Origin: a virus
Length of the DNA: 21,542 bases
IMG/VR virus record: IMGVR_UViG_3300021185_001347
Span: 1-21,542 of that record
Reading direction: 5' to 3' (one strand)
The notes beneath the pieces were generated by a model. That model ran no database searches. It was given only the letters and a program-made list of their open reading frames with translations, and was not told the origin of the DNA. The translations under genes were made by a program, and so were the position numbers. Every line of letters starts with the position of its first letter. Within the stretch, counting starts at the first letter, position 1. This document shows positions 1,983 through 17,246 of this stretch, one piece after another.

Positions 1983-2554
1983 TGACAATTAAACATGAAG
2001 CTTTTGTTTACCAATGGCAAAACATTTGTAATGCTAGAGCCTACGTCGGCTTTCACATCGGTCACCCAGATGATGGCTACGTGGCTAGCAGCAAAGACTT
2101 CCTAGTTGATTACAAGGCAGATCCTAAATGTTTCGAGCGCACAATACTAGCATACGGCTCAGCCCGTGAAATGCAAGCGTTCGAGACAGGCTGGCTGCGA
2201 GCAATCAACGCAAGACAAGATAAGTTGTACTACAATAAGTGGAACAATGACACTGAATACACAGAGAACGGCTTAGCCTTCGAACACCAACGCGACTTTG
2301 TACAAGGCAAACTAGTAAGCGCTCAGATACAAGCAGGCGTTGCTAAAAGTAAAAAGGCAGCAAAAGAGTTCTACGTGATTTACGTTGACGATCAAATGAT
2401 TAACTGTAATCCCGACTGGATTAGCAGATCAGATGATAAACGAATACAAGAGATGGTAGGCCAAACAGTAGGCTGTACGCTAACATGGCGCGGCGGCTTT
2501 GCTTACTTCGGTCCAGCTAACTTAAACTTAATTGAAGGTGAAAATAATGATTAA
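1982..2554 (+). CDS. GIY-YIG-type endonuclease-like protein
   Basis: 190 residues. The first ~90 residues fit a GIY-YIG nuclease domain: VYQW at 9-12 in place of GIY, YVGFHIG at 21-27 for YIG, then HPDDGYVASSKDF, FERTILAYGSAREMQAFETGWL (candidate metal-binding Glu68) and YYNKWNN at 83-89. The HPDDGY...SS...EM...E order is the one seen in phage GIY-YIG proteins that cut DNA or act as homing nucleases. The C-terminal ~60 residues are unrecognised. The start is the TAATG overlap at 1982 with AGGAG just upstream. It lies between two nucleotide-pool genes in an unbroken operon, so it may be a free-standing homing nuclease or a host-DNA nuclease. The weak GIY motif lowers confidence. Confidence 0.65.
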   Translation: MTIKHEAFVYQWQNICNARAYVGFHIGHPDDGYVASSKDFLVDYKADPKCFERTILAYGSAREMQAFETGWLRAINARQDKLYYNKWNNDTEYTENGLAFEHQRDFVQGKLVSAQIQAGVAKSKKAAKEFYVIYVDDQMINCNPDWISRSDDKRIQEMVGQTVGCTLTWRGGFAYFGPANLNLIEGENND

Positions 2555-3254
2555 AAACACAGTACAAGATGTCCGTGACGCTTTCTGCATGAAATACGTT
2601 GAAGGTGATTTCATTGACACAATTAAAGCAGGCAAGATGCTTGAAATACAAGGCTTGACCTTCGTTGCCGATGAAGATAACATCTTCGGTAAGATTAACT
2701 ACGATTACGCTGAAGCTGAACTTGAGTGGTTTAAGTCAATGTCGCGTAACGTAGACGGCTTATTCCACATGTGGGGTAAGAAAGTTCAGATCTGGGATAT
2801 TATCGCTGATAACAACCGTAATGTTAACTCTAACTACGGCTACTTAGCAATGCACCCAGACAACGGCTCACAGATAGATAAAGTGATAGCTACGTTAAAG
2901 CGTGATAGAACCTCACGTCAAGCAGCAGCGATCTACACTCGTCCGTCAATTCATGAAGAGTGGAATCAAGATGGCATGTCCGATTTCATTTGCACTAATG
3001 CAGTAATGTACAACATCCGTGATGGCGTACTCGAAACAACAGTGCAGATGCGTTCTAACGACATCATCTTCGGTTTCCGTGCTGATATGCATTGGCATAA
3101 GTGGTGTTCAGACATGGTTGCAGACCAACTCGGTGCTGAGCGTGGCGACATCCATTGGCAAGTTGCCTCGGCACACGTTTACTCACGCCACTTTAAGCTG
3201 ATTCAGCAGTACATGGACGATCGCTACGAAAACTTCATGGAGCCTAACTGCTAA
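2547..3254 (+). CDS. Thymidylate synthase-fold enzyme, probable dCMP (hydroxy)methylase
   Basis: 235 residues from the ATG at 2547, which has GAAGGTG upstream; a TTG at 2532 is a poorer alternative. From the catalytic Cys to the HxY motif the protein aligns without gaps over 64 positions to my recollection of E. coli ThyA: C149, D159-G160, R169-S170-x-D172, G176, G200-D201, W204, H210-x-Y212. The ThyA Asn177 that reads the uracil ring is here Asp180 (GFRAD instead of GLPFN). Asp at this site is the hallmark of T4 gp42 dCMP hydroxymethylase, and Asn-to-Asp in TS shifts preference to dCMP. The phosphate-binding pair SRR is SRQ (123-125). It therefore probably transfers a one-carbon unit from methylene-tetrahydrofolate to dCMP. 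Whether the product is hydroxymethyl- or methyl-dCMP cannot be read from sequence. It overlaps the previous gene by 8 bases. Confidence 0.85.
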   Translation: MIKNTVQDVRDAFCMKYVEGDFIDTIKAGKMLEIQGLTFVADEDNIFGKINYDYAEAELEWFKSMSRNVDGLFHMWGKKVQIWDIIADNNRNVNSNYGYLAMHPDNGSQIDKVIATLKRDRTSRQAAAIYTRPSIHEEWNQDGMSDFICTNAVMYNIRDGVLETTVQMRSNDIIFGFRADMHWHKWCSDMVADQLGAERGDIHWQVASAHVYSRHFKLIQQYMDDRYENFMEPNC

Positions 3255-3445: not shown

Positions 3446-3566
3446 TCGTATAATGGCAACCCTTTGTTTTCCTGCGGTTGCTATAGTAGCACTAATGGAC
3501 TCAGAAATGAACAACAAAGGGTTTATAACAAACTTTAAAATAATAGCAGGTATGAAAGATGCTTAA
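3438..3566 (+). CDS. Small protein with a hydrophobic N-terminal segment
   Basis: A 42-residue ORF beginning MFNRIMATLCFPAVAIVALM. AGGAG at 3426-3430 sits 7 bases before the ATG, and the gene overlaps both neighbours by 8 bases, as expected for a real member of this operon. Residues about 5-20 are hydrophobic enough for a membrane segment or an uncleaved signal; the remainder is polar. Function unknown. Confidence 0.5.
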   Translation: MFNRIMATLCFPAVAIVALMDSEMNNKGFITNFKIIAGMKDA

Positions 3567-3963
3567 ACAAGTATACGCGTTTAATAGCGAAATACGTAAA
3601 GAAACTCAACCAACTAAACCACAACAAATGACTATTCAGCAACACCATGCTAGAGCTATCTTCTTATCTGAAGAGTGCCTAGAGTTTGCTGAAGCAACAA
3701 CACCTGAAGGCGAGCTTGACGCTCTTATCGATATCATTTATTTCGCTATTGGCGGTATGTATGAAATGGGTTTAAGCGAAAAGCAAGTTCAAGAAGCCTT
3801 TAGTAAAGTACACATGGCTAATATGAAGAAAGTGGCAGGCGCAAAGCTGCGTGCTGCTGGTATTGAAGTGACAGATGCGGCTAAGCCTGATGATTGGCTT
3901 GAGCCTGATTTGTCTGTCTATTTTAAATGTTGCGGCTGCGGAGGCTGTGACGGAAAGGAATAA
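3559..3963 (+). CDS. MazG-like nucleotide pyrophosphohydrolase
   Basis: 134 residues, all-alpha NTP pyrophosphatase type. Acidic metal-binding residues appear in two helices: S37-E38-E39-C-L-E42-F-A-E and E52-L-D54-A-L-I-D58-I-I-Y, followed by a helix GGMYEMGLSEKQVQEAFSKVHMANMKK typical of the phage phosphoribosyl-ATP pyrophosphohydrolase-like branch. Such enzymes cut (d)NTPs to (d)NMP and pyrophosphate. Beside a dCMP-directed TS-fold enzyme, a dCTPase role like that of T4 gp56 is attractive but inferred. The C-terminus carries a Cys-rich tail, C124-C-G-C-G-G-C130, unusual for the family and possibly metal-binding. It overlaps the previous small ORF by 8 bases. Confidence 0.8.
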   Translation: MLKQVYAFNSEIRKETQPTKPQQMTIQQHHARAIFLSEECLEFAEATTPEGELDALIDIIYFAIGGMYEMGLSEKQVQEAFSKVHMANMKKVAGAKLRAAGIEVTDAAKPDDWLEPDLSVYFKCCGCGGCDGKE

Positions 3964-5422: not shown

Positions 5423-5610
5423 TGTGGAAACTTATGATTCTTGCATTTGCCATAATCTATCCAATCTATGCCTACACGCTACACGTAGAAGGTACTGCAG
5501 AACCATATAACTATATCTTAACCGGTATGGCTAGCATGATTCTAGTTGACGTAATTATAGCAATTTCGATTGCATTTATTGTAGTGTTTAGTAGGGAGCA
5601 AAATGACTGA
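5422..5610 (+). CDS. Small two-helix membrane protein
   Basis: 62 residues with two hydrophobic segments, about 3-20 and 32-56, separated by a polar loop (HVEGTAEPYN), ending in a short charged tail SREQND. It has AAGGAG upstream and TAATG coupling to the RusA-like gene. It overlaps the primase-helicase start by 8 bases. Topology would allow a holin-like role, but the location inside the replication block and the absence of an endolysin nearby argue for caution. Confidence 0.65.
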   Translation: MWKLMILAFAIIYPIYAYTLHVEGTAEPYNYILTGMASMILVDVIIAISIAFIVVFSREQND

Positions 5611-7294
5611 TTCGCATATTGTAGAGAAAAACCAACCATGCGGAGAGTGTGGCTCATCAGACGCCGTACAGGTTTACTCTGATGGCCATGCATTCTGCTA
5701 TTCTTGTAACCATAACTATAAGGATTACAATGCATATATTGAAGAAAACAATGTACAGCCAGAACCTAAGAAGCAGAAAGCTATGACAGCGTTTGTGCCT
5801 CAGCTTTCTCTCGAAGAAATTGCGTCGCTCGGTAATAAAGGCTTTAGGGAACGTCTAATTGACAAACGTGTAACAGCACACTTCGGTGTTACCGCAGGCA
5901 TGTCAGGCGATACTATTACTGAGCACTATTATCCGTACACTATTGCGGGTAAGCTAAGTGCGTTTAAAAAGCGTGTTGTAGCAACTAAAGAGTTTCAGAT
6001 TGTTGGCGAATTTAAAGACGTTGAACTGTTCGGCCAGTCTGTATTTCGTGAAGGCGGCAAACGTGTCGTACTAACCGAAGGCGAACTCGATGCTATGTCT
6101 TACGCTCAGGCGTGCTTACAAGAGTCTAACCAGATTTATCCGGTTGTCTCAATGCCATCTGCTACAGGCATTAAAGCTGTTAAGAACAATCGTGCTTGGC
6201 TGCGTTCGTTTGATGAAGTCATTCTGTGGCTCGATAACGATGAAGCAGGCGAGAACGGCTTAAAGGCTGTTGCAAAGGCTATCGGCTTTGATAAAGTAAA
6301 AGTTGTCAAAGGCGTTGAAAAAGATTGTAATGATGTTTTAATTAAGCATGGTACTAAAGAGTGTATGCGTCACGTATGGGATGCGTCACCTTATTCACCT
6401 GCAGGCATCATTGCTGATAAAGAAGTACTGTGGGAACAGCTGGAAGAGTATGATAACATTGTTAGCGTGCCTTATCCAGAGTGTCTTACAGGACTTAACG
6501 AAAAGCTTAAAGGCATGCGTCCAGGCGAAATTACGCTATGGACATCAGGCACAGGCAGCGGTAAATCTACTCTGTTGCGTGAAATCATGCTTCACTTACT
6601 GGAGACAACAGATGAGAAAATCGGTTTGGTTGCTCTTGAAGAAGCTCCTGCGGAATCTGCTCGTAAACTTGCCGGTATGGCTATTAACAAAAATCCTGTT
6701 AAAGAGCCTATCCCCAAAGACGAGCTTCGGCAGGGATTTGATAAAGTGTTTGGTAGTAATCGCGTCGTGGTACTTGATCATCACGGTTCTATGAACGATG
6801 GTTCTATCGTAGACACTCTCGAAGCTATGTGTGTCATGGGTGCTAAGTACCTATTCGTTGACCACATCACTATCCTCGTATCAGAGGGTGCTGACGGTCT
6901 AACAGGTAACGAAGCTATTGATAAGGTCATGAATGACTTATTGTCTGTTGCTAAGCGCCATAACGTATGGATTGGCTTAGTTAGTCACTTACGTAAAATG
7001 ACTACCGCAGGCTCTTCATTCGAAGACGGCAAGTTAGCATCGCTCGACGACATTCGTGGCTCAGGCTCGATCAAACAGATATCATTCGATATTCTAGCGT
7101 TTGCTCGTAACCTACAGGCACAAACTGAAACTGAGCGTAATACTATTCGTATGGCTGTTCTTAAGTCTCGTTACACTGGCTTGACCGGTGATTGCGGTAC
7201 TGCAGTCTATAACTATGATACCGGTCGCCTAACTTACGGTGGCTTTGCTCCACAAACAGATGGTGCTAAAGGTGTCTTTGACATTGAAATATAG
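5603..7294 (+). CDS. T7 gp4-like DNA primase-helicase
   Basis: 563 residues, close to T7 gp4 (566). Domains in order: a zinc-binding domain with C13-x-x-C16 and C32-x-x-C35; TOPRIM primase with TEG159-160-E-L-D-A (158-164) and acidic L-D211-N-D213; a linker; then a RecA-type DnaB-family helicase with Walker A G316-T-G-S-G-K-S-T323, E346-E347 as candidate catalytic Glu, and Walker B Y-L-F-V-D420-H. It would synthesise primers on single-stranded template and unwind the fork ahead of a phage DNA polymerase, not found in this window. The start is the ATG at 5603 after AGGGAG, overlapping the membrane-protein gene. Confidence 0.95.
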   Translation: MTDSHIVEKNQPCGECGSSDAVQVYSDGHAFCYSCNHNYKDYNAYIEENNVQPEPKKQKAMTAFVPQLSLEEIASLGNKGFRERLIDKRVTAHFGVTAGMSGDTITEHYYPYTIAGKLSAFKKRVVATKEFQIVGEFKDVELFGQSVFREGGKRVVLTEGELDAMSYAQACLQESNQIYPVVSMPSATGIKAVKNNRAWLRSFDEVILWLDNDEAGENGLKAVAKAIGFDKVKVVKGVEKDCNDVLIKHGTKECMRHVWDASPYSPAGIIADKEVLWEQLEEYDNIVSVPYPECLTGLNEKLKGMRPGEITLWTSGTGSGKSTLLREIMLHLLETTDEKIGLVALEEAPAESARKLAGMAINKNPVKEPIPKDELRQGFDKVFGSNRVVVLDHHGSMNDGSIVDTLEAMCVMGAKYLFVDHITILVSEGADGLTGNEAIDKVMNDLLSVAKRHNVWIGLVSHLRKMTTAGSSFEDGKLASLDDIRGSGSIKQISFDILAFARNLQAQTETERNTIRMAVLKSRYTGLTGDCGTAVYNYDTGRLTYGGFAPQTDGAKGVFDIEI

Positions 7295-7302
7295 GAGTTA
7301 CT

Positions 7303-7584
7303 ATGCCGTACATCGCTGAAGCAGGTCGGTCTAAACTAACCTACTCGCCATCACCTATAAACGCAGGTGAAATGCAATACGTTATCGCTAAGATGATACA
7401 GAAGTATCTTGAACGTAAAGCAGAAGAAAACGGTGAAGTACGCTACCAAGATATGAACGACATCATGGGTGCCTTAGCTGGTGCCCAGATGGAGTTCTAT
7501 CGTGAAGTAGTTGTGCCTTACGAAGACAAAAAGATTGAAGAGAACGGATTTGTCTATGACCCATCCGCTTACATTAAACGATAG
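7303..7584 (+). CDS. DUF6899-like conserved phage protein
   Basis: 93 residues with the pattern MPYI near the start, AGEMQYVIAKMI (21-32), YQDMNDIMGALAGAQMEFYREVVVPYEDKKIEENG toward the end. This order is what I recall for a small phage family listed as DUF6899, often near replication genes; no function is known to me. AGGAG lies before the ATG. It follows the primase-helicase by 8 bases and is probably in the same transcript. Confidence 0.65.
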   Translation: MPYIAEAGRSKLTYSPSPINAGEMQYVIAKMIQKYLERKAEENGEVRYQDMNDIMGALAGAQMEFYREVVVPYEDKKIEENGFVYDPSAYIKR

Positions 7585-7597
7585 AAGGGAAATCAGT

Positions 7598-8224
7598 ATG
7601 TCTATCATTATACCATCACCAGCAGTAGTTCCTGTTCCTGCTAAGGAAGCTTCCGAAACACCTCAGAAGTTTGAAGAGCGTAAGCCTGGTCTTGTTCTGT
7701 ATAACAACGGTGTTCTTTACATGGATAAAGAGTTCAACCAAGAGAACTGTATGCCATTAGTAAAGGCTATTGTTGAATACAACATGCTGCCTAAATCAGA
7801 GCAGCCTGAAGAAATTAAGCTGTTCATTAACTCACCAGGTGGTGCTGTACATTCAGCGTTCCATCTGATCGACACTATTAAGATGTCTAACATTCCTGTA
7901 TCTACTATTGCTATGGGTTTAGCTGCATCATGTGGTGTCTTGCTCCTTATGTCAGGCGTTAAAGGCAAGCGCTACGTTACTCAAAACACTTCTGTTATGT
8001 CGCATCAATACGCGTGGGGAAGCAGAGGCAAAGAGCACGAGCTTATGGGCAAGATTAAAGAGTTTGAGATGTCATCATTCCGTATGATTGAGCACTATAA
8101 GAAGTGCACAGGCAAGACCGAGAAGTATATCCGTAAGCACTTGCTACCGGAAACAGATCAGTGGTTGTCGCCTGAAGAAACAGTCAAACATGGTATTGCT
8201 GACGAAATCATTACAACCTATTAG
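7598..8224 (+). CDS. ClpP-like serine protease
   Basis: 208 residues from the ATG at 7598, with AAGGGA upstream; the frame is open further back into the previous gene but that is less likely. A ClpP/crotonase fold is clear: the oxyanion-loop motif S79-P-G-G82, nucleophile in G-L-A-A-S111-C-G-V-L-L-L, His in M-S-H136-Q, and Asp in E-T-D187-Q-W-L-S-P-E-E-T, matching the ClpP catalytic triad. In phages such proteins are often head-maturation proteases, but here it lies among replication genes, so it may instead degrade host or early phage proteins, possibly with a host Clp ATPase. The 25-residue Pro/Ala-rich N-terminus is not part of the fold. Confidence 0.85.
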   Translation: MSIIIPSPAVVPVPAKEASETPQKFEERKPGLVLYNNGVLYMDKEFNQENCMPLVKAIVEYNMLPKSEQPEEIKLFINSPGGAVHSAFHLIDTIKMSNIPVSTIAMGLAASCGVLLLMSGVKGKRYVTQNTSVMSHQYAWGSRGKEHELMGKIKEFEMSSFRMIEHYKKCTGKTEKYIRKHLLPETDQWLSPEETVKHGIADEIITTY

Positions 8225-9238: not shown

Positions 9239-11242
9239 ATGAAAGTGGAATATCACGGAATCGAACTAGACTTATCGCGCGATGCACTATTCGCCGATTA
9301 CGCGCGTGGAATGATTATGGACTTCTACGCTATTGAAACTGAAGAAAACATACAGCAGGTATTTGCTCGAGCAGCAATCGCTTGGTCTGCATTTAAAGGA
9401 AAAACTGACTATGCACTCGCACAACGTCTATATGATGGTGTTAGCCGCAAACACTTTATGTTCGCTAGTCCAGTATTATCGAATGCGCCATGCCCCGCAA
9501 CAGGAGAAAAGAGAGGTCTTCCGATCTCTTGTTTCCTTACTTATGTACCTGACACCATTGAAGGCCTTATCGATCATAGTAGCGAGCTACGTTATCTTTC
9601 TGTTTTTGGTGGCGGTGTTGGCGGACATTGGTCCGATGTTCGGAGTGTGTCTGACAAAGCCCCTGGGCCTATTCCATTCCTGTCAACAGTAGATGCTGAT
9701 ATGACTGCTTACCGCCAAGGTAAGACACGTAAAGGCTCTTATGCAGCGTACATAGACGTAACACACCCTGACATTCAGGAATTTATGAACATACGTATTC
9801 CAACAGGTGATACTAATCGTAAATGCCTTAACTTACATAACGCTATTAACTTAACTGACGACTTTATGAAAGCAGTTGTTGATGGTAAAACATACGAGCT
9901 TATTGATCCTGCTAAAGGACCAACAGGTGAATTCCTTAGCGCTCGTAAAGTGTGGCAACAGATTCTTGAAGTACGCTTCAGAACAGGTGAGCCATACCTT
10001 AACTTTATTGATACAGCTAACAGCGGCTTACCTCAGACTATGAAAGATAAAGGTCTTAAGATACACGGTTCTAACTTGTGTAACGAAATTCACTTACCTA
10101 CAGCACCTGATCGTTCGGCTGTTTGTTGCTTATCATCTGTTAACCTAGAAAAGTATGACGAGTGGAAAGGCACAACGTTAGTTAAAGACATTATTATAAT
10201 GCTTGATAACGTCATTGAGTACTTCATTGAGAATGCTCCTGATGCTATATCACGTGCTCGTTACTCAGCTCAGCAAGAACGCTCTCTCGGTCTCGGTGCT
10301 ATGGGTTTTCACTCATACTTAATGAGCAAAGACTTAGCGTTTGAATCAGAAGCCGCTGCCTCACACAATCACATTATGTTTGGCACTATAAAGCAGCAAG
10401 CTGTTGCAGCTACTGAACAACTAGCTAAGATGCGTGAAGAAGCACCCGACATGATCGGTACTGGTAGACGTAATGCACACTTACTTGCGGTTGCACCTAA
10501 TGCATCCTCTGGTTTGTTGCTGTCAACCTCACCTTCTATCGAGCCGCTAAAGGCTAACGCTTACACTCACCGTACTCGTGCTGGTTCATTTTTAATTAAG
10601 AACCCACATCTTGAAACTTTGCTTACTAAGCATAAGCGTAACGATGAAGAGACATGGCAGAGCATTATTGTTAATAAAGGTTCTGTACAGCAGCTTAAGT
10701 TTCTATCTGATAAAGAAAAGAATGTATTTAAGACATCATTCGAGTTAGATCAGCTTATGGTTGTTAAGCATGCAGCACACCGACAGCAGTTTATCTGTCA
10801 AGGTCAGTCTGTTAATCTGTTCTTCTTACCTGGTGTGTCTCGTGACTACGTTAATCGCGTACACTTAGACGCATGGCTGCGTGGACTTAAAGGTCTATAT
10901 TACTTGCGCACAGAGGCTAAGCAGAGAGCAGAGAACGTAGGTGACAAGGTAGAACGTTTAGCGTTAACTGATGCTAACCAGACTATTATATATGGTAAGC
11001 CTGGTTGTCCGTTCTGTGAGAAAGCTAAGACTTGGTTTGAAGTTCGCGGTATTGAATACGAATATGTTGATATCGAAGAGCTCGGTAAGACTGCCGCTGA
11101 AGTTACAGGACGTAAAGACGTTAAATCAGTGCCTCAGGTTTATATCGAAGGCAAATACATAGGTGGTTACTCTCAGCTATCAGCTTACGGAGACAAGCCT
11201 ATAGAACAGGATGGTGATGAATGCCTAGCATGTGAAGGATAA
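9239..11242 (+). CDS. nrdA: Class I ribonucleotide reductase alpha subunit with internal glutaredoxin domain
   Basis: 667 residues. It reduces ribonucleoside diphosphates to deoxyribonucleotides with NrdB as radical source. No N-terminal ATP-cone is visible, so dATP inhibition through that domain is unlikely. Core residues correspond to E. coli NrdA: C98 (C225), N279-x-C281-x-E283 (N437, thiyl C439, E441), C296 (C462), P420-N-A-S-S and the radical-transfer pair Y554-Y555. From about 581 to 650 there is a glutaredoxin domain, Y-G-K-P-G-C590-P-F-C593, S-V-P-Q-V-Y-I and G-G-Y. The protein then ends with C662-x-x-C665, the swinging redox tail expected of NrdA. Thus the glutaredoxin sits between core and tail. 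Start: ATG at 9239 with AAGGAGTA at 9227-9234; a second AAGGAGTA occurs at 9208-9215 before a five-codon MKEY frame. Confidence 0.95.
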   Translation: MKVEYHGIELDLSRDALFADYARGMIMDFYAIETEENIQQVFARAAIAWSAFKGKTDYALAQRLYDGVSRKHFMFASPVLSNAPCPATGEKRGLPISCFLTYVPDTIEGLIDHSSELRYLSVFGGGVGGHWSDVRSVSDKAPGPIPFLSTVDADMTAYRQGKTRKGSYAAYIDVTHPDIQEFMNIRIPTGDTNRKCLNLHNAINLTDDFMKAVVDGKTYELIDPAKGPTGEFLSARKVWQQILEVRFRTGEPYLNFIDTANSGLPQTMKDKGLKIHGSNLCNEIHLPTAPDRSAVCCLSSVNLEKYDEWKGTTLVKDIIIMLDNVIEYFIENAPDAISRARYSAQQERSLGLGAMGFHSYLMSKDLAFESEAAASHNHIMFGTIKQQAVAATEQLAKMREEAPDMIGTGRRNAHLLAVAPNASSGLLLSTSPSIEPLKANAYTHRTRAGSFLIKNPHLETLLTKHKRNDEETWQSIIVNKGSVQQLKFLSDKEKNVFKTSFELDQLMVVKHAAHRQQFICQGQSVNLFFLPGVSRDYVNRVHLDAWLRGLKGLYYLRTEAKQRAENVGDKVERLALTDANQTIIYGKPGCPFCEKAKTWFEVRGIEYEYVDIEELGKTAAEVTGRKDVKSVPQVYIEGKYIGGYSQLSAYGDKPIEQDGDECLACEG

Positions 11243-11246
11243 TATA

Positions 11247-12197
11247 ATGTCAATACTTGAACAATCACAGGTCTACAGACCTTTTAAATACCCACAGTTT
11301 GTGGAACTAACTAAAACACATGAAGAGATTCACTGGGTCGGCGACGAAGCTGACCTTAGTGAAGACGTACAAGACTGGAAGACAAAGCTATCCGCAGGCG
11401 AAAAAGAATTCGTCACACAGATTCTTAAACTCTTTACTCAGTCAGACGTAGCGGTTGGCGATAACTATCACAACCACTTAATCCCTCGTGTTAAGAACAA
11501 CGAAGCTCGTGTTATGCTAGCATCCTTTGCTAATCGTGAAGGTGAGCATCAGCGTGCTTACTCTCTGTTAAATGACACTCTTGGCTTGCCTGAAGAGATC
11601 TACTCTGAATTCTTAGAGTACTCTGAAATGGCTGACAAGGTTGATCACATGACAGAGAATGACTCTACTACACAGTCTGGCTTAGCTCTTACTATGGCTA
11701 AATCAGTGCTTAACGAAGGTGTATCACTCTTTGCTTCTTTCGTAATGTTGCTTAATATGCAGCGCTACGGTAAGATGAAAGGCATGAACACTATTGTTGA
11801 GTGGTCTATTAGAGATGAGACTATGCACGTTGACGGTATTGCTCAGCTATTCAGATTATTCTGTGAAGAGCATCCACGTATTGTTAACGATGAGCTTAAG
11901 TCAAAGATTTACGATATGGCTCGACTGACTGTTAAACTGGAAGATAAGTTTATTGACTTAGCTTTCGCTAAACATGAGATCGAAGGTCTTAGTAAAGAAG
12001 AAGTAAAGAAGTACATTCGCTATGTAACTGACAGACGTCTGATTCAGCTAGGACTTAAAGGAAACTATAAAGTAAAAGAAAACCCACTGCCGTGGCTTGA
12101 CTGGATTCTTAATGGCACTAGCCATGATAACTTCTTTGAAAAGAGAGTTACTGAATACAGCATTGGCGGTATGGACGGAGAATGGGGTTGGTCTTAG
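11247..12197 (+). CDS. nrdB: Class I ribonucleotide reductase beta subunit
   Basis: 316 residues from the ATG at 11247, with AAGGA at 11235-11239; a GTG at 11232 is less likely. Di-metal ligands match the class I pattern: D67, E98 and H101, E157, E191 and H194 (R-D-E-T-M-H). Y105, four residues after H101, is the tyrosyl-radical site (E. coli Y122), so it looks like the classical radical-bearing type. The C-terminal tail YSIGGMDGEWGWS would dock on NrdA. It begins 4 bases after the nrdA stop, as expected for stoichiometric expression. Confidence 0.95.
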   Translation: MSILEQSQVYRPFKYPQFVELTKTHEEIHWVGDEADLSEDVQDWKTKLSAGEKEFVTQILKLFTQSDVAVGDNYHNHLIPRVKNNEARVMLASFANREGEHQRAYSLLNDTLGLPEEIYSEFLEYSEMADKVDHMTENDSTTQSGLALTMAKSVLNEGVSLFASFVMLLNMQRYGKMKGMNTIVEWSIRDETMHVDGIAQLFRLFCEEHPRIVNDELKSKIYDMARLTVKLEDKFIDLAFAKHEIEGLSKEEVKKYIRYVTDRRLIQLGLKGNYKVKENPLPWLDWILNGTSHDNFFEKRVTEYSIGGMDGEWGWS

Positions 12198-12651: not shown

Positions 12652-12951
12652 ATGGCTAAGACTTTCACGTTAGATTACTTCGCTGAAAAGGCAATCGAAG
12701 AGAACATTAATATGATTGTCCCATGGTATTTGATGGCTGCTTGTGCTTATTACAAGGAGGACAGTCCGATACTATCAGACGATCTCTTTGATAACATGGC
12801 GAAAAAGATGCTAAATGAGTACGACACCATCGAGCATTATCACAAAGAACTAATCACAAAAGAAGATCTTTCAGCAGGCACTTACTTAGGAAAATATCCT
12901 GAGCGTGTCGCTGGCGGTCTTCGAGCATTAAGAAAGACATACAGAATATGA
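12652..12951 (+). CDS. Stand-alone protein resembling domain Ia of NAD-dependent DNA ligase
   Basis: 99 residues. A-Y33-Y34-K-E-D37-S-P39-I-L-S42-D43-D-L-F46-D47 closely matches the Y-Y-x-x-D-x-P-x-x-S-D-x-x-Y-D signature of LigA domain Ia, which binds the nicotinamide half of NAD+. Downstream HYHKELITKEDLSAGTYLGKYPERV resembles what I recall of small phage proteins with this signature. No adenylation domain (KxDG) is present here or nearby. It could be an accessory to a ligase encoded elsewhere, or a repurposed NAD-binding module. The ATG follows the upstream stop after one base, and its TGA overlaps the next ATG. Confidence 0.6.
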   Translation: MAKTFTLDYFAEKAIEENINMIVPWYLMAACAYYKEDSPILSDDLFDNMAKKMLNEYDTIEHYHKELITKEDLSAGTYLGKYPERVAGGLRALRKTYRI

Positions 12952-13383: not shown

Positions 13384-14235
13384 ATGTTAAAATTGATTAA
13401 GAGTTTTGCGCTAGCCGCAATTTTAGTAGTAAGCTTTACGGCAGCAAGTGTTGCTCAAAGAAACTTACCTATAGAAGCAGAGCCGCAATATAAGATCATT
13501 GTGCTCACAGCTAACAACACGCCTACTATTGCAGTTCAAGGTGAGTTCGCAGCTGGCATAACTAAAACTCTACGTAAAGTAATTAACAAATACCCACACA
13601 TTACTACGATAGCATTCCAGTCACCTGGTGGAAACGCCAATGAAGCCTTTGATATGGCTCAATTACTTAACGAGAAGAAGTGGACTACAATTGTACCACA
13701 AGGTAGAATCTGTTTGTCTGCTTGCGCTATTGCCTTTATGGCAGGTTCAGAATACATTGTAGAAGGAATTCTAGGCTACCACAATGCGTGGATTCCATCT
13801 GAGCAGTCAGTATACACAAAGAAAGAGTTTAACGAAGGGTTTAACTTAGCGCAGCTTATCGGTGGTCAAACACTTTATTACAAGGCTGCTAACGGCTTTG
13901 TCTTTGATTTTGCGCTACAAGTACTATACAAAACATCACCTACAAAGTTCGCTGTGTTTACAGAAACAAAGCAGTTCTATAACCAAATGGTTTCAGATAG
14001 AGATGACTTTACTACGTATCACGAACAGAAGGGTCAAGTGCCTGTCTGGGATAATAGGATGATGGGAACAATAGCTACTGCATTAATTGAGAAAGAAACG
14101 GCAAATCCTACGTTCTTTATCAGTGACGTTATCGAAATCGTAGATCAACCTTGCGAGGAGATAAGCAATGAAATACAACAAAACAAACGGTCACAGCCAG
14201 CGTCAACAGGCTATCTGGCTATTACAAATGGCTAA
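13384..14235 (+). CDS. Exported ClpP/crotonase-fold protein
   Basis: 283 residues with a clear Sec signal peptide: K3, hydrophobic 8-20, and an A-S-V-A-Q site giving cleavage after about A24. The mature part has a ClpP-like core: hydrophobic strand ITTIAFQ then S80-P-G-G83-N-A-N-E-A, and R-I-C110-L-S112-A-C114-A-I-A-F-M-A-G with candidate nucleophile S112 followed by G-Y-H133 in the His position. This resembles periplasmic ClpP-like proteins of proteobacteria (COG3904 type). The two Cys flanking the Ser could form a disulfide in the periplasm. A phage gene for an exported protease-like protein may act in envelope modification, superinfection exclusion or lysis; no evidence decides. RBS AAGGGAA precedes the ATG. 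Its last 68 bases overlap the next ORF. Confidence 0.75.
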   Translation: MLKLIKSFALAAILVVSFTAASVAQRNLPIEAEPQYKIIVLTANNTPTIAVQGEFAAGITKTLRKVINKYPHITTIAFQSPGGNANEAFDMAQLLNEKKWTTIVPQGRICLSACAIAFMAGSEYIVEGILGYHNAWIPSEQSVYTKKEFNEGFNLAQLIGGQTLYYKAANGFVFDFALQVLYKTSPTKFAVFTETKQFYNQMVSDRDDFTTYHEQKGQVPVWDNRMMGTIATALIEKETANPTFFISDVIEIVDQPCEEISNEIQQNKRSQPASTGYLAITNG

Positions 14236-14338: not shown

Positions 14339-14414
14339 GCTGTTTTAGCTCAGTTGGTAGAGCAGGGCATTAGTAATGCTCAGGTCGGCGGTTCGAGTCC
14401 GTCAAGCAGCACCA
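14339..14414 (+). tRNA. tRNA-Thr, anticodon AGU, CCA encoded
   Basis: A full cloverleaf can be folded: acceptor GCTGTTT/AAGCAGC (one G-U), D-stem GCTC/GAGC with loop AGTTGGTA, anticodon stem GGGCA/TGCTC, loop TTAGTAA with AGT at 14372-14374, short variable loop, T-stem GGCGG/CCGTC and loop TTCGAGT, then A73 and CCA. G1-C72 and C2-G71 are the acceptor identity pairs of threonyl-tRNA, and the body closely resembles bacterial tRNA-Thr. Position 34 is A, rare for bacterial tRNA-Thr. The encoded CCA suggests a host whose tRNAs carry it, or phage self-sufficiency. Confidence 0.93.
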
Positions 14415-14926: not shown

Positions 14927-15150
14927 TTGATCACTCACGTAACCTAGAGATGTCTAGAATGGCATCACTCGAAGCAGCCGTAGAAAACATACCTCTCTTA
15001 AAGGCTAAAATAGCACAACTAGAAAGAGCGCTAGAAGATATAACAGCTGCTTATCGTTTGCTAGAAAGAGAAAAGCTAGCATACCAAACAGAGTTAAATG
15101 AAGAGAGACACGGCAAGAAAGTTCCCTCTTCTATGCTTAATGGACTATAG
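14923..15150 (+). CDS. Coiled-coil hypothetical protein
   Basis: 75 residues, with heptad-like spacing of Leu/Ile from about 14 to 60 (LEAAVENIPLLKAKIAQLER followed by LEDITAAYRLLEREK), typical of a dimeric coiled coil. Coupled to the previous gene by an ATGA overlap. Function unknown; small phage coiled-coil proteins include lysis accessory and regulatory factors. Confidence 0.65.
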   Translation: MIDHSRNLEMSRMASLEAAVENIPLLKAKIAQLERALEDITAAYRLLEREKLAYQTELNEERHGKKVPSSMLNGL

Positions 15151-15159
15151 GAGATCACA

Positions 15160-15252
15160 ATGAAGACCGATTTCAGAGTAATGCTAGAAGCAGTAGCTCT
15201 AGTAGGATTAGGTATGCTACTTATGGTAGTAGTACTAAAGGTAATACTTTAA
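15160..15252 (+). CDS. 30-residue single-pass membrane peptide
   Basis: A short polar start (MKTDFR) followed by one hydrophobic helix VMLEAVALVGLGMLLMVVVL. AGGAG lies 8 bases before the ATG and immediately after the previous stop. Too short for family assignment, but the site and composition support translation. Confidence 0.5.
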   Translation: MKTDFRVMLEAVALVGLGMLLMVVVLKVIL

Positions 15253-15261
15253 GGAGACAGA

Positions 15262-15354
15262 ATGAGCACATTCACTTACTACACGCTAATGACAATGATT
15301 GTTATAGTTAACCTCATTATTTGGCACGGATTATTACATTCCATTATGGGATAG
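15262..15354 (+). CDS. 30-residue membrane peptide
   Basis: Hydrophobic throughout (begins MSTFTYYTLMTMIVIVNLII) with AAGGAGA 5 bases before the ATG. It starts 9 bases after the previous micro-gene. It is the last gene before the long hairpin and the gene-free region. Function unknown. Confidence 0.5.
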   Translation: MSTFTYYTLMTMIVIVNLIIWHGLLHSIMG

Positions 15355-15371
15355 TATTAACTTGATAAAAA

Positions 15372-15425
15372 ACCCTCAGATACTTTAGGACATCCCGTAT
15401 GGGATATCTTAGAGTGTCTGAGGGT
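15372..15425 (+). terminator. Very long hairpin with tetraloop
   Basis: Bases 15372-15396 pair with 15401-15425 across a GTAT loop: 25 positions with three G-U pairs and one C-A mismatch. It begins 17 bases after the last small gene. A T7 run follows at 15442-15448. It could terminate transcription, or be an RNase III-type processing site or a DNA-level cruciform next to the candidate origin. Confidence 0.75.
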
Positions 15426-15655
15426 ATAAGTCTTAACCTTATTTTTTTCGAAGTGAAGAAGAGAAGAGAGATAGTATAAGAGAGAACACGCTATGCGCTC
15501 ACTAATAATATCACTCTAACTGCACTTACCTGATAGCTTTTTATATAATAACTACTAACAACTACCATATGAAGTAACGCATATTGGTGTTTATTATTAG
15601 TCTTAGCATAGTTAACCTCTCATAGTTATTCTACTAAGTATACTATAGAGATAGC

Positions 15656-15708
15656 TACTAGTTAATTACTACTAGTTAAGACTACTAGTTAAGACTCCTA
15701 GTTATAAC
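15656..15708. repeat. 13-base tandem repeat array, about four copies
   Basis: Units TACTAGTTAATTAC (15656), TACTAGTTAAGAC (15670 and 15683, identical) and TCCTAGTTATAAC (15696). Each contains CTAGTTA; ACTAGT within most units is itself palindromic. Confidence 0.75.
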
Positions 15709-15783
15709 ATAGGGTATAGCCTAAGGTAATAACCTATGGGTAATAACTTATAGGGAATAACTTAAGGTATATAACCTATAGGG
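15702..15783. repeat. Degenerate AT-rich iterons ending in AGGG
   Basis: Six consecutive units of about 12-16 bases: TATAACATAGGG, TATAGCCTAAGG, TAATAACCTATGGG, TAATAACTTATAGGG, AATAACTTAAGG and TATATAACCTATAGGG. They share TAAC/CTATAGGG and carry near-palindromic cores such as CCTATAGG. The TATAGGG core also recalls single-subunit phage RNA polymerase promoters. Confidence 0.65.
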
Positions 15784-15965
15784 TCTTCTTCAGAGCCCTC
15801 TCTTCTTTAACTAGCTGAATCGACAAACATGATACAGCTAAATAAAGAAATGATATATAATGTCTTAGGAAGAAATATCAATTAACGCCACTAGCTACCA
15901 AAGAGACATACTCCCTGAAGTCTGCTAGCCGTTATCCTACACATTATCGCTATACCTCAGGCTAC

Positions 15966-16050
15966 ACACACAGTATAACCCACAGCAAGCCGACATATAC
16001 GGTGCTATCTCGTGGTCATACACACAGTATAACCCACGGTAAGCCGACAT
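15966..16050. repeat. 31-base direct repeat, two copies 54 bases apart
   Basis: Copies at 15966-15996 and 16020-16050 begin ACACACAGTATAACCCAC and end AAGCCGACAT, differing at two positions. ACAGTATA recurs at about 16056 and AAGCCGAC at 16204, as partial copies. Confidence 0.8.
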
Positions 16051-16203
16051 GGCGCACAGTATACCTCGAGCTATGCGGCATGCTAGGCGCCGGGTGCGGG
16101 CTGCCTATGCGCGGTGCCAGGTGTTGGCCCACCCCCGTTTTAACTCCGGGGATGACTAACGGCGCTGCCGGTGCTGTCGAGGAACTGAGGCAAGCTCCTA
16201 TTA

Positions 16204-16237
16204 AAGCCGACGATAAACGACGCTGACGCTTCGGCTT
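16204..16237 (+). other. Hairpin at the end of the GC-rich island
   Basis: AAGCCGA (16204-16210) pairs perfectly with TCGGCTT (16231-16237) across a 20-base loop. A smaller CCCCG/CGGGG hairpin lies at 16133-16151. No T-run follows, so these look structural rather than terminators. Confidence 0.4.
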
Positions 16238-16285
16238 GTGCTGTTATATAGCATTAATTAAGTCAGCTCATTACAGGAGACCATT

Positions 16286-16333
16286 ATGGCATATCCATGT
16301 AAGAAGATTAAAAAAGGTGGACGCAGAAAGTAA
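16286..16333 (+). CDS. Possible 15-residue basic micro-peptide
   Basis: MAYPCKKIKKGGRRK, with ACAGGAGA 6-10 bases before the ATG. The good ribosome site and strongly basic sequence suggest translation, but length prevents a firm call. It may be a leader peptide. Confidence 0.35.
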   Translation: MAYPCKKIKKGGRRK

Positions 16334-16347
16334 CTTTACTCAGCTCT

Positions 16348-16375
16348 GCCTTAACCTTAATCGAACCATTAAGGC
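16348..16375 (+). other. Small hairpin between the micro-ORF and HNH gene
   Basis: GCCTTAA (16348-16354) or CCTTAA (16355-16360) can pair with TTAAGG(C) at 16369-16375, giving two alternative 6-7-base-pair stems. A T5 run comes only about 20 bases later. A weak terminator or a regulatory switch is possible. The rest of 16376-16462 shows nothing clear. Confidence 0.3.
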
Positions 16376-16462
16376 CACCGCCTGCCCGCCTAGCTTTTTA
16401 TATCGTATTTTAAAAAAGTGGATGACGAGTGGGGGTGGTTTTTTACTATTTAGGAGCCGATT

Positions 16463-16744
16463 ATGGCAATATGTAAAGATAACCGTAACCGCAAAAGAAA
16501 GTACATTTGGGACTATAAAGAAGCCCGAGGTTGTGCTGAATGTGGTTACAATGAGCATCCTGTTGCTCTCCAGCTAGATCATATCGATCCTGCTCTTGGT
16601 AAACACAGAAGACTTCGCTCTTCAGGTTGGGATGACCTATCCTGGTCCGACTTAGAAGAAGAACTAACCAAGTGTCAAGTACTCTGTGCCAATTGTCATG
16701 CTATTAAGACATACAGAAACAAAGACCACTTACCACGCAATTAG
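16463..16744 (+). CDS. HNH endonuclease
   Basis: 93 residues. Zinc knuckles C24-A-E-C27 and C75-A-N-C78 frame the HNH core: L-Q-L-D39-H40-I-D-P and C71-Q-V-L-C75-A-N77-C78-H79-A-I-K-T, the order seen in small free-standing phage HNH nucleases. It would nick or cut double-stranded DNA with a divalent metal. TAGGAG lies about 8 bases before the ATG. Its place just after the candidate origin region and before the virion genes suits either a homing nuclease or a factor in DNA processing; terminase-linked HNH proteins exist, but no terminase is visible here. Confidence 0.85.
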   Translation: MAICKDNRNRKRKYIWDYKEARGCAECGYNEHPVALQLDHIDPALGKHRRLRSSGWDDLSWSDLEEELTKCQVLCANCHAIKTYRNKDHLPRN

Positions 16745-16756
16745 GAGACTCAAACT

Positions 16757-16807
16757 ATGCTCGATGTAATATTTCTAGCAATCGTAGTAGCATTTTTCGT
16801 CTTATAA
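16757..16807 (+). CDS. Possible 16-residue hydrophobic peptide
   Basis: MLDVIFLAIVVAFFVL, preceded by TAGGAGAC 8-12 bases upstream of the ATG. Nearly all hydrophobic, long enough to span a membrane once. Very short, so confidence is low. Confidence 0.35.
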   Translation: MLDVIFLAIVVAFFVL

Positions 16808-16856
16808 CTTAACCGTCGTCGATACTCTGTATCGCGTATTAGAAGGGAACAGCACA

Positions 16857-16964
16857 ATGGAAACTTTTCTAGCTATCCTGTTTGTTATCACCTGTGGATT
16901 GCTTTTAGCTTCCAATGAGGTTGACAAATGGCTAACTAAGCTTATTAATAAAGAGCTGGGTTAG
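16857..16964 (+). CDS. 35-residue single-pass membrane protein
   Basis: METFLAILFVITCGLLLASN followed by a charged helix EVDKWLTKLINKELG, so one membrane segment (4-19) with a cytosolic amphipathic tail. AAGGGA about 9 bases before the ATG. No family recognised; a lysis or membrane-regulatory role is only a guess. Confidence 0.5.
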   Translation: METFLAILFVITCGLLLASNEVDKWLTKLINKELG

Positions 16965-16971
16965 TACTACT

Positions 16972-17008
16972 GGTTCACATGAGCCATGACTAACGGTTCA
17001 CATGAGCC
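16972..17008. promoter_or_regulatory. Repeated palindromic element, operator-like
   Basis: GGTTCACATGAGCC occurs exactly twice (16972-16985 and 16995-17008), 23 bases start to start, about two helical turns. Each copy is a near-palindrome with central ACAT. It lies just upstream of a terminator, between the early genes and virion genes. Confidence 0.5.
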
Positions 17009-17017
17009 GTAACTACT

Positions 17018-17065
17018 GGGAACTGACTCGTCGTGCGTTAGCACGCGGTAAGTCCCATTTTTTAT
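17018..17065 (+). terminator. Rho-independent terminator before virion genes
   Basis: Outer stem GGGAACT (17018-17024) with AGTCCC (17051-17056), one bulged A, and inner stem CGTGC (17032-17036) with GCACG (17041-17045), followed by ATTTTTTATT. It separates the upstream genes from the virion genes. Confidence 0.85.
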
Positions 17066-17246
17066 TAAAATTCCAAAACGGAACCGAATTCCCGCAAGGG
17101 ATGTCGCGCAGACTGTAGAAAATCCGGAAATCTTCTATAGACTGTGAACGCATTGTAGTACGCTAGCGCGGAAGTGATGCACAAAGGTGTTGTAGTAACC
17201 TAACCAGGTGAAGTGGCACGAAATATTGACCATTATGGAGAAAACA
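17066..17246 (+). promoter_or_regulatory. Leader region expected to hold a virion-gene promoter
   Basis: About 180 bases without a gene, between the terminator and the next ATG, so a promoter is expected here. I see no convincing sigma70 -35/-10 pair. It holds a CCC-GCAA-GGG mini-hairpin (about 17092-17101) and an 8-base-pair stem CTGTAGAA (17113-17120) with TTCTATAG (17133-17140), flanked by direct repeats of AGACTGT (17110 and 17139). Confidence 0.3.

Follow-up and report, generated by a model that had tools for sequence, protein, structure and literature searches.

A predicted dCMP hydroxymethylase of the T4 gp42 family in an uncultured phage lineage with T7-type replication genes

The question raised by this locus is whether a viral protein with the thymidylate synthase (TS) fold serves thymidylate synthesis or the modification of cytosine and, in the latter case, which modified nucleotide it would produce. 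The DNA analysed, hereafter the window, is a stretch of 21,542 nucleotides (21.5 kb) from IMG/VR record IMGVR_UViG_3300021185_001347, and the protein, P0001, is encoded on the + strand at 2547–3254. An earlier note on this DNA had proposed a cytosine-directed TS-fold enzyme, making either hydroxymethyl- or methyl-dCMP: the cytosine-directed reading is supported by the sequence and fold of the protein, by its place in a tree, by its active-site residues and by the genes around it, and P0001 is, very probably, a dCMP hydroxymethylase of the T4 gp42 type, providing hydroxymethyl-dCMP (hm-dCMP) for cytosine-modified DNA. Statements on function rest on homology and genomic context, the source being a fragment of an uncultured virus.

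The ORF starts with ATG and encodes 235 amino acids; its match to Pfam family PF00303 (E 1.5e-19) is far beyond chance, in line with the fold first assigned to it. A search of the PDB with P0001 returned a T4 dCMP hydroxymethylase chain at the top (E 1.3e-50), with ThyA at about 1e-8, and the top phage matches are mostly annotated gp42 genes, with identities up to 47%, in a search matching 1422 phage records, thymidylate synthases among them. Since P0001 is 41–44% identical to gp42 (EC 2.1.2.8; PDB 1b5d, 1b49, 6a9b), and only 23–24% to ThyA, the former is the proper reference, and, judged by sequence, P0001 is a gp42-family protein, something beyond a ThyA with a single unusual residue. The gene is under purifying selection, with a dN/dS of 0.12 relative to its homologue in the related contig L169 (IMGVR 3300007539_000534).

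Fold and phylogeny lead to the same family. The AlphaFold model of P0001, obtained with 36 sequences in input, has a pLDDT of 92.6, and Foldseek ranks four T4 dCMP hydroxymethylase entries on top (TM 0.88–0.90, rmsd 1.5–1.7 A), the best being 1b5d (TM 0.90, rmsd 1.5 A), followed by ThyA, MilA and AfhB, at a TM of about 0.7. AfhB of phage HY126 (PDB 9iqc/9iqu) is a flavin-dependent dCMP hydroxylase, whose product is 5-hydroxy-dCMP; it shares the fold, with dCMP bound, and is recovered by both Foldseek and phmmer. That P0001 is an enzyme of this kind is nevertheless extremely improbable, as identity is about 24% and TM about 0.7, versus 41% and 0.90 for gp42, and most of the checked T4 folate-site residues (Y56, I81, W82, F174, R177) are retained. 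In a maximum likelihood tree of 47 proteins, the complete set of 40 gp42-like rows, to which P0001 and T4 gp42 belong, is united in one 100/100 group; outside it fall E. coli ThyA and, together with ThyA, the enzymes of the XP12 group and those of the type found in Pelagibacter phage Kolga, the exact placement of ThyA and Quartz, both long branches, being unsure.

Twenty-five positions of T4 gp42, taken mostly from the ternary-structure paper (PMC6400193), were checked in P0001: 21 are identical, one is conservatively changed (T4 V85 to Ile) and three differ. The identical ones, in T4 numbering, are N53, Y56, E60, I81, W82, S94, Y96, R123, S144, D145, C148, T149, R168, S169, D171, F174, R177, D179, H216, Y218 and R220. 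They include the catalytic pair of the TS fold, namely Cys149 (T4 C148, ThyA C146; codon at 2991–2993, + strand) and Glu58 (T4 E60). The hydroxylation-site residues Ser94, Tyr96 and Asp145, whose roles in the T4 enzyme are described in PMC6400193, are retained as Ser95, Tyr97 and Asp146. Similarly, the pair Ser169 and Arg123, whose equivalents favour deoxyribose over ribose according to work on MilA (PMC5175136), is retained as Ser170 and Arg124.

From Cys149 to His210-x-Tyr212 (ThyA H207-x-Y209) P0001 aligns with ThyA with zero gaps, just as the earlier note had stated, and within this stretch ThyA Asn177 corresponds to Asp180 (T4 D179; codon GAT at 3084–3086, + strand), the cytosine-reading residue (PMC6400193, PMC8670742). 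Alignment with both the ThyA and the gp42 families thus places Asp, not Asn, at the base-contact site. Thr150 occupies the position of His147 in ThyA and of Pro in XP12-group enzymes. These two residues, together with the identity values given above, weigh against an ordinary or relaxed thymidylate synthase, converting dUMP into dTMP and perhaps fed by the deaminase encoded nearby, a reading that has the TS fold in its favour, as well as the frequent labelling of gp42 homologues as 'thymidylate synthase' in database records, but which we regard as highly improbable.

Asp at TS position 177 is by itself sufficient to shift ThyA towards dCMP methylation (PMC8670742), and XP12-group phages pair a TS homologue of the Asp type with a deaminase and a fusion of MazG and Nmad1, two domains also encoded around P0001. 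Both facts favour a dCMP methyltransferase of the kind of Xanthomonas phage XP12, producing 5-methyl-dCMP. Against it, P0001 lies within the gp42 clade, and not with ThyA, and combines Thr150 with Asp146 of gp42; moreover, no dihydrofolate reductase (DHFR) gene was recognised in the window, the surroundings of P0001 included, although methylation would use up tetrahydrofolate. An XP12-type enzyme is therefore improbable. Of the two products left open by the earlier note, hydroxymethyl-dCMP is clearly favoured, because of the gp42 clade, the gp42 hydroxylation residues and the lack of a recognised adjacent DHFR gene, and methyl-dCMP is disfavoured.

The three positions differing from T4 are K28, R59 and R124, replaced by Ile26, Ala57 and Gln125, respectively, so that substrate and folate binding may differ in P0001. 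The last replacement turns the phosphate-site SRR motif of T4 and ThyA into SRQ (Ser123-Arg124-Gln125, codons at 2913–2921, + strand), a change already remarked upon and confirmed by alignment, though not unique to P0001. Arg124 is invariant in 91 out of 91 aligned proteins, while the adjoining second position is R in 86, Q in 4 and H in one; this second arginine is thus usual in the family, but not defining. Gln is also found in L169 and in Micrococcus phage Kurnik, judged by its size and gene neighbours to be a non-T4-type phage, whose gp42-like enzyme shares 44–46% identity with P0001 and has a deaminase gene nearby; unlike in the window, no Nmad1 was found in the whole Kurnik record.

As is the case for T4 gp42, P0001 is located among phage nucleotide-metabolism genes. 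Four genes on the + strand overlap end to start: a dCMP deaminase (958–1365), an Nmad1/DUF1599 protein (1362–1982), a conserved 190-aa protein (1982–2554) and the hydroxymethylase itself; a 63-aa ORF follows and then, at 3559–3963 on the + strand, a MazG/PRA-PH-like nucleotide pyrophosphohydrolase. The deaminase matches phrog_174 (E 6e-56) and, in the PDB, best the deoxycytidylate deaminase 4p9c (E 7.6e-35); it is only 34–37% identical to that of roseophage DSS3_VP1, and its sequence is compatible with either dCMP or dCTP as substrate. The 190-aa protein, directly upstream of the hydroxymethylase, resembles GIY-YIG proteins weakly, with weak matches to SegE_GIY-YIG and to homing endonucleases. 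Further downstream, both ribonucleotide reductase subunits are encoded on the + strand, the large one, with a C-terminal glutaredoxin, at 9239–11242 (PF02867, E 2e-101; PF00462, E 1e-14) and the small one at 11232–12197 (PF00268, E 2e-70). This setting recalls the results of MetaGPA, in which Asp177 in TS marks cytosine-modified contigs, with PRA-PH and dCMP deaminase as TS partners (PMC8670742).

The Nmad1 assignment rests on phrog_1485 (E 1e-10), with the domain at about residues 110–203, and on PF07659, matched by 18 of the 21 aligned homologues. The protein also features an extra helical part of about 100 amino acids, N-terminal to the domain (1362–1690), which, among the aligned homologues, has a counterpart only in L169.

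T4 gp56, the dCTPase of that phage, gave no tblastn match in the window, which differs from T4 in having MazG and Nmad1, as well as T7-type replication genes. The MazG-like protein (PF01503, E 4e-10) is a candidate dCTP-removing enzyme and matches the gp56 family profile weakly (hhalign probability 78% over 52 columns). Nmad1 was also considered as a diverged MazG or gp56 and rejected: profile comparisons with both gave nothing, the PDB profile search returned no credible match, the AlphaFold model has a pTM of 0.48 and its fold matches all have E >1. Of the two proteins, MazG appears the better candidate for the role of gp56. Neither an hm-dCMP kinase (T4 gp1), among the examined ORFs, nor a glycosyltransferase was recognised in this 21.5-kb genome fragment.

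By analogy with the T4 enzyme, Cys149 would attack C6 of dCMP, with Asp180 reading and protonating the cytosine ring; methylene-tetrahydrofolate would donate the one-carbon unit after activation through Glu58, and a water near Asp146, Ser95 and Tyr97 would finish hydroxymethylation, yielding 5-hydroxymethyl-dCMP and tetrahydrofolate. It is highly probable that hm-dCMP is the product of the enzyme. The MazG-like neighbour probably removes dCTP, the deaminase may feed dUMP towards dTTP and ribonucleotide reductase would supply deoxynucleotides, so that hm-dCTP could replace dCTP in phage DNA, and the DNA thus modified would be protected against host nucleases. That virion DNA carries modified cytosine is, overall, likely.

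The association of gp42-like enzymes with these partners was surveyed in 79 gp42-like IMG/VR loci; as similarity to the query guided their choice and they are partly redundant, the counts are descriptive. Within 1 kb, 66 loci have Nmad1 and 56 a deaminase; 46 have MazG within 4 kb, and 5 have gp56 anywhere in the fetched DNA. Within a second set of 79 loci, selected by primase with the same bias, redundancy and descriptive value, Nmad1 occurs in only four, exactly those in which a TS homologue, of the Asp type and ThyA-like, was detected. Nmad1 and gp56 do not strictly exclude each other: 26 hand-chosen whole records, of which those of CRP-7, DSS3_VP1 and Kolga were included for reasons other than a gp42 gene, comprise 14 with Nmad1 only, 5 with gp56 only, 2 with both (G009 and G016, those of loci L047 and L070) and 5 with neither. 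Exclusion is a tendency, not a rule.

Pelagibacter phage Kolga (L006, 9023–9808) and loci L142, L148, L150 and L152 encode, in the same locus as Nmad1, a ThyA-like TS whose residue at position 177 is Asp, and a cytosine-directed TS-fold enzyme is predicted in this phage and its relatives.

An operon of similar content, with MazG, Nmad1, a cytosine-type TS homologue and a deaminase, is found in the XP12 group (Bradleyvirinae/Pamexvirus). In phage XP12 all cytosine is replaced by 5-methylcytosine (PMC9206674); in place of the Xp12 record, MT664984, the group was represented by DLP4, PaMx28, Mallos and others. A MazG-Nmad1 fusion lies beside a TS of the Asp177 type in 11 out of 11 XP12-group and related phages, drawn from phage records beyond the loci surveyed above (L177–L187: DLP4, PaMx28, PaMx74, Mallos, ZQG1, DoCa5, A1432, Elanor, YB23, V45iii and Donnerlittchen). 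The operon differs from that of the window in that MazG and Nmad1 are fused, the TS homologue is ThyA-like and expected to be a methylase, and most of these enzymes adjoin a DHFR gene. Annotations of the fusion protein vary, from HAD hydrolase to DNA-binding protein, pyrophosphohydrolase or hypothetical protein.

A more general scheme may tentatively be put forward, which we consider possible, but doubtful. MazG and Nmad1/DUF1599 would be a general pair of partners for phage TS homologues replacing cytosine, both hydroxymethylating (gp42) and methylating (XP12), and would exclude dCTP, or pass modified dCMP onward, in place of T4 gp56; under this scheme, hydroxymethylcytosine (hmC), perhaps further tailored, would take the place of all cytosine in the present lineage, with its T7-type replication genes.

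The lineage is marked by a T7-type primase-helicase (5603–7294, + strand), with Toprim and DnaB_C domains, which is 52% identical to that of Roseobacter phage CRP-7, 45% to that of Kolga and 44% to that of DSS3_VP1. L169 has the same gene order, with 75–86% identity in module genes, which are under purifying selection (dN/dS 0.07–0.14), and carries, upstream, a T7-type DNA polymerase and an RNA polymerase. Its DNA polymerase is apparently split into adjacent exonuclease and polymerase ORFs (L169 4470–5342 and 5343–6407). Among the 79 gp42-like loci a T7-type DNA polymerase was found in the fetched DNA only in L011, the same contig as L169 and hence of the window's own lineage. In two loci sharing 64% primase identity with the window, L091 and L093, a 35% identical homologue of the 1982–2554 gene lies directly upstream of the homologue of the 3965–4360 gene, with no hydroxymethylase between them, indicating that the genes in between were gained or lost. 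A 32-base pattern near the start of the window was found in no other viral contig, and a megablast of phage records gave no match.

The primase-helicase and exonuclease and, through L169, the polymerase are related to those of DSS3_VP1, of the Naomviridae, phages with dU-DNA, and DSS3_VP1 likewise has a deaminase in the same module. In contrast, DSS3_VP1 makes dU-DNA, in which dU replaces dT, and relies for this on a dCTP deaminase together with a dTMP phosphatase (PMC12697855), and gp42 has no match in its replication region; related replication modules thus appear to carry different base-replacement strategies. Gene 64 of DSS3_VP1, taken at one point as the dTMP phosphatase and as evidence on dU-DNA, was dropped, its L169 homologue matching a gp2.5-like ssDNA-binding family.

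Homologues of gp42 are common and known outside T4-type phages, and the disguise of cytosine is a known strategy. With the locus described here, hydroxymethylation of cytosine in the manner of T4 would reach a lineage whose replication module is of the T7 type and which is not known to employ such a disguise; no report of a dCMP hydroxymethylase in a T7-type phage or podovirus was found in the open-licence literature. An Asp-type TS homologue with Nmad1, MazG and deaminase may constitute a small gene set predicting cytosine replacement in uncultured phages, with Nmad1 as a conserved partner, for which a description of the biochemistry was not found in the literature.

Some further features of the two contigs are worth recording. 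Upstream of the hydroxymethylase module, L169 encodes a nucleoside 2-deoxyribosyltransferase-like protein (6676–7134), followed by an AlkB-like 2OG-Fe(II) oxygenase (7134–7742); the pair might have modified nucleotides as its substrates or have nothing to do with them. In the window, inspection of the sequence points to a ClpP-like protein beside the primase (7511–8224), and a second ORF (13384–14235) matches protease and head-maturation-protease families. A 99-aa protein (12652–12951) matches NAD-dependent DNA ligase over its N-terminal NAD-binding domain only. About 2 kb, at 15150–17200, are occupied by short ORFs, the longest of 113 amino acids, among them that of an HNH endonuclease (16463–16744). 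Finally, a tRNA-Thr gene with anticodon AGT lies at 14339–14414; to our knowledge, this anticodon is unusual in bacteria and phages.
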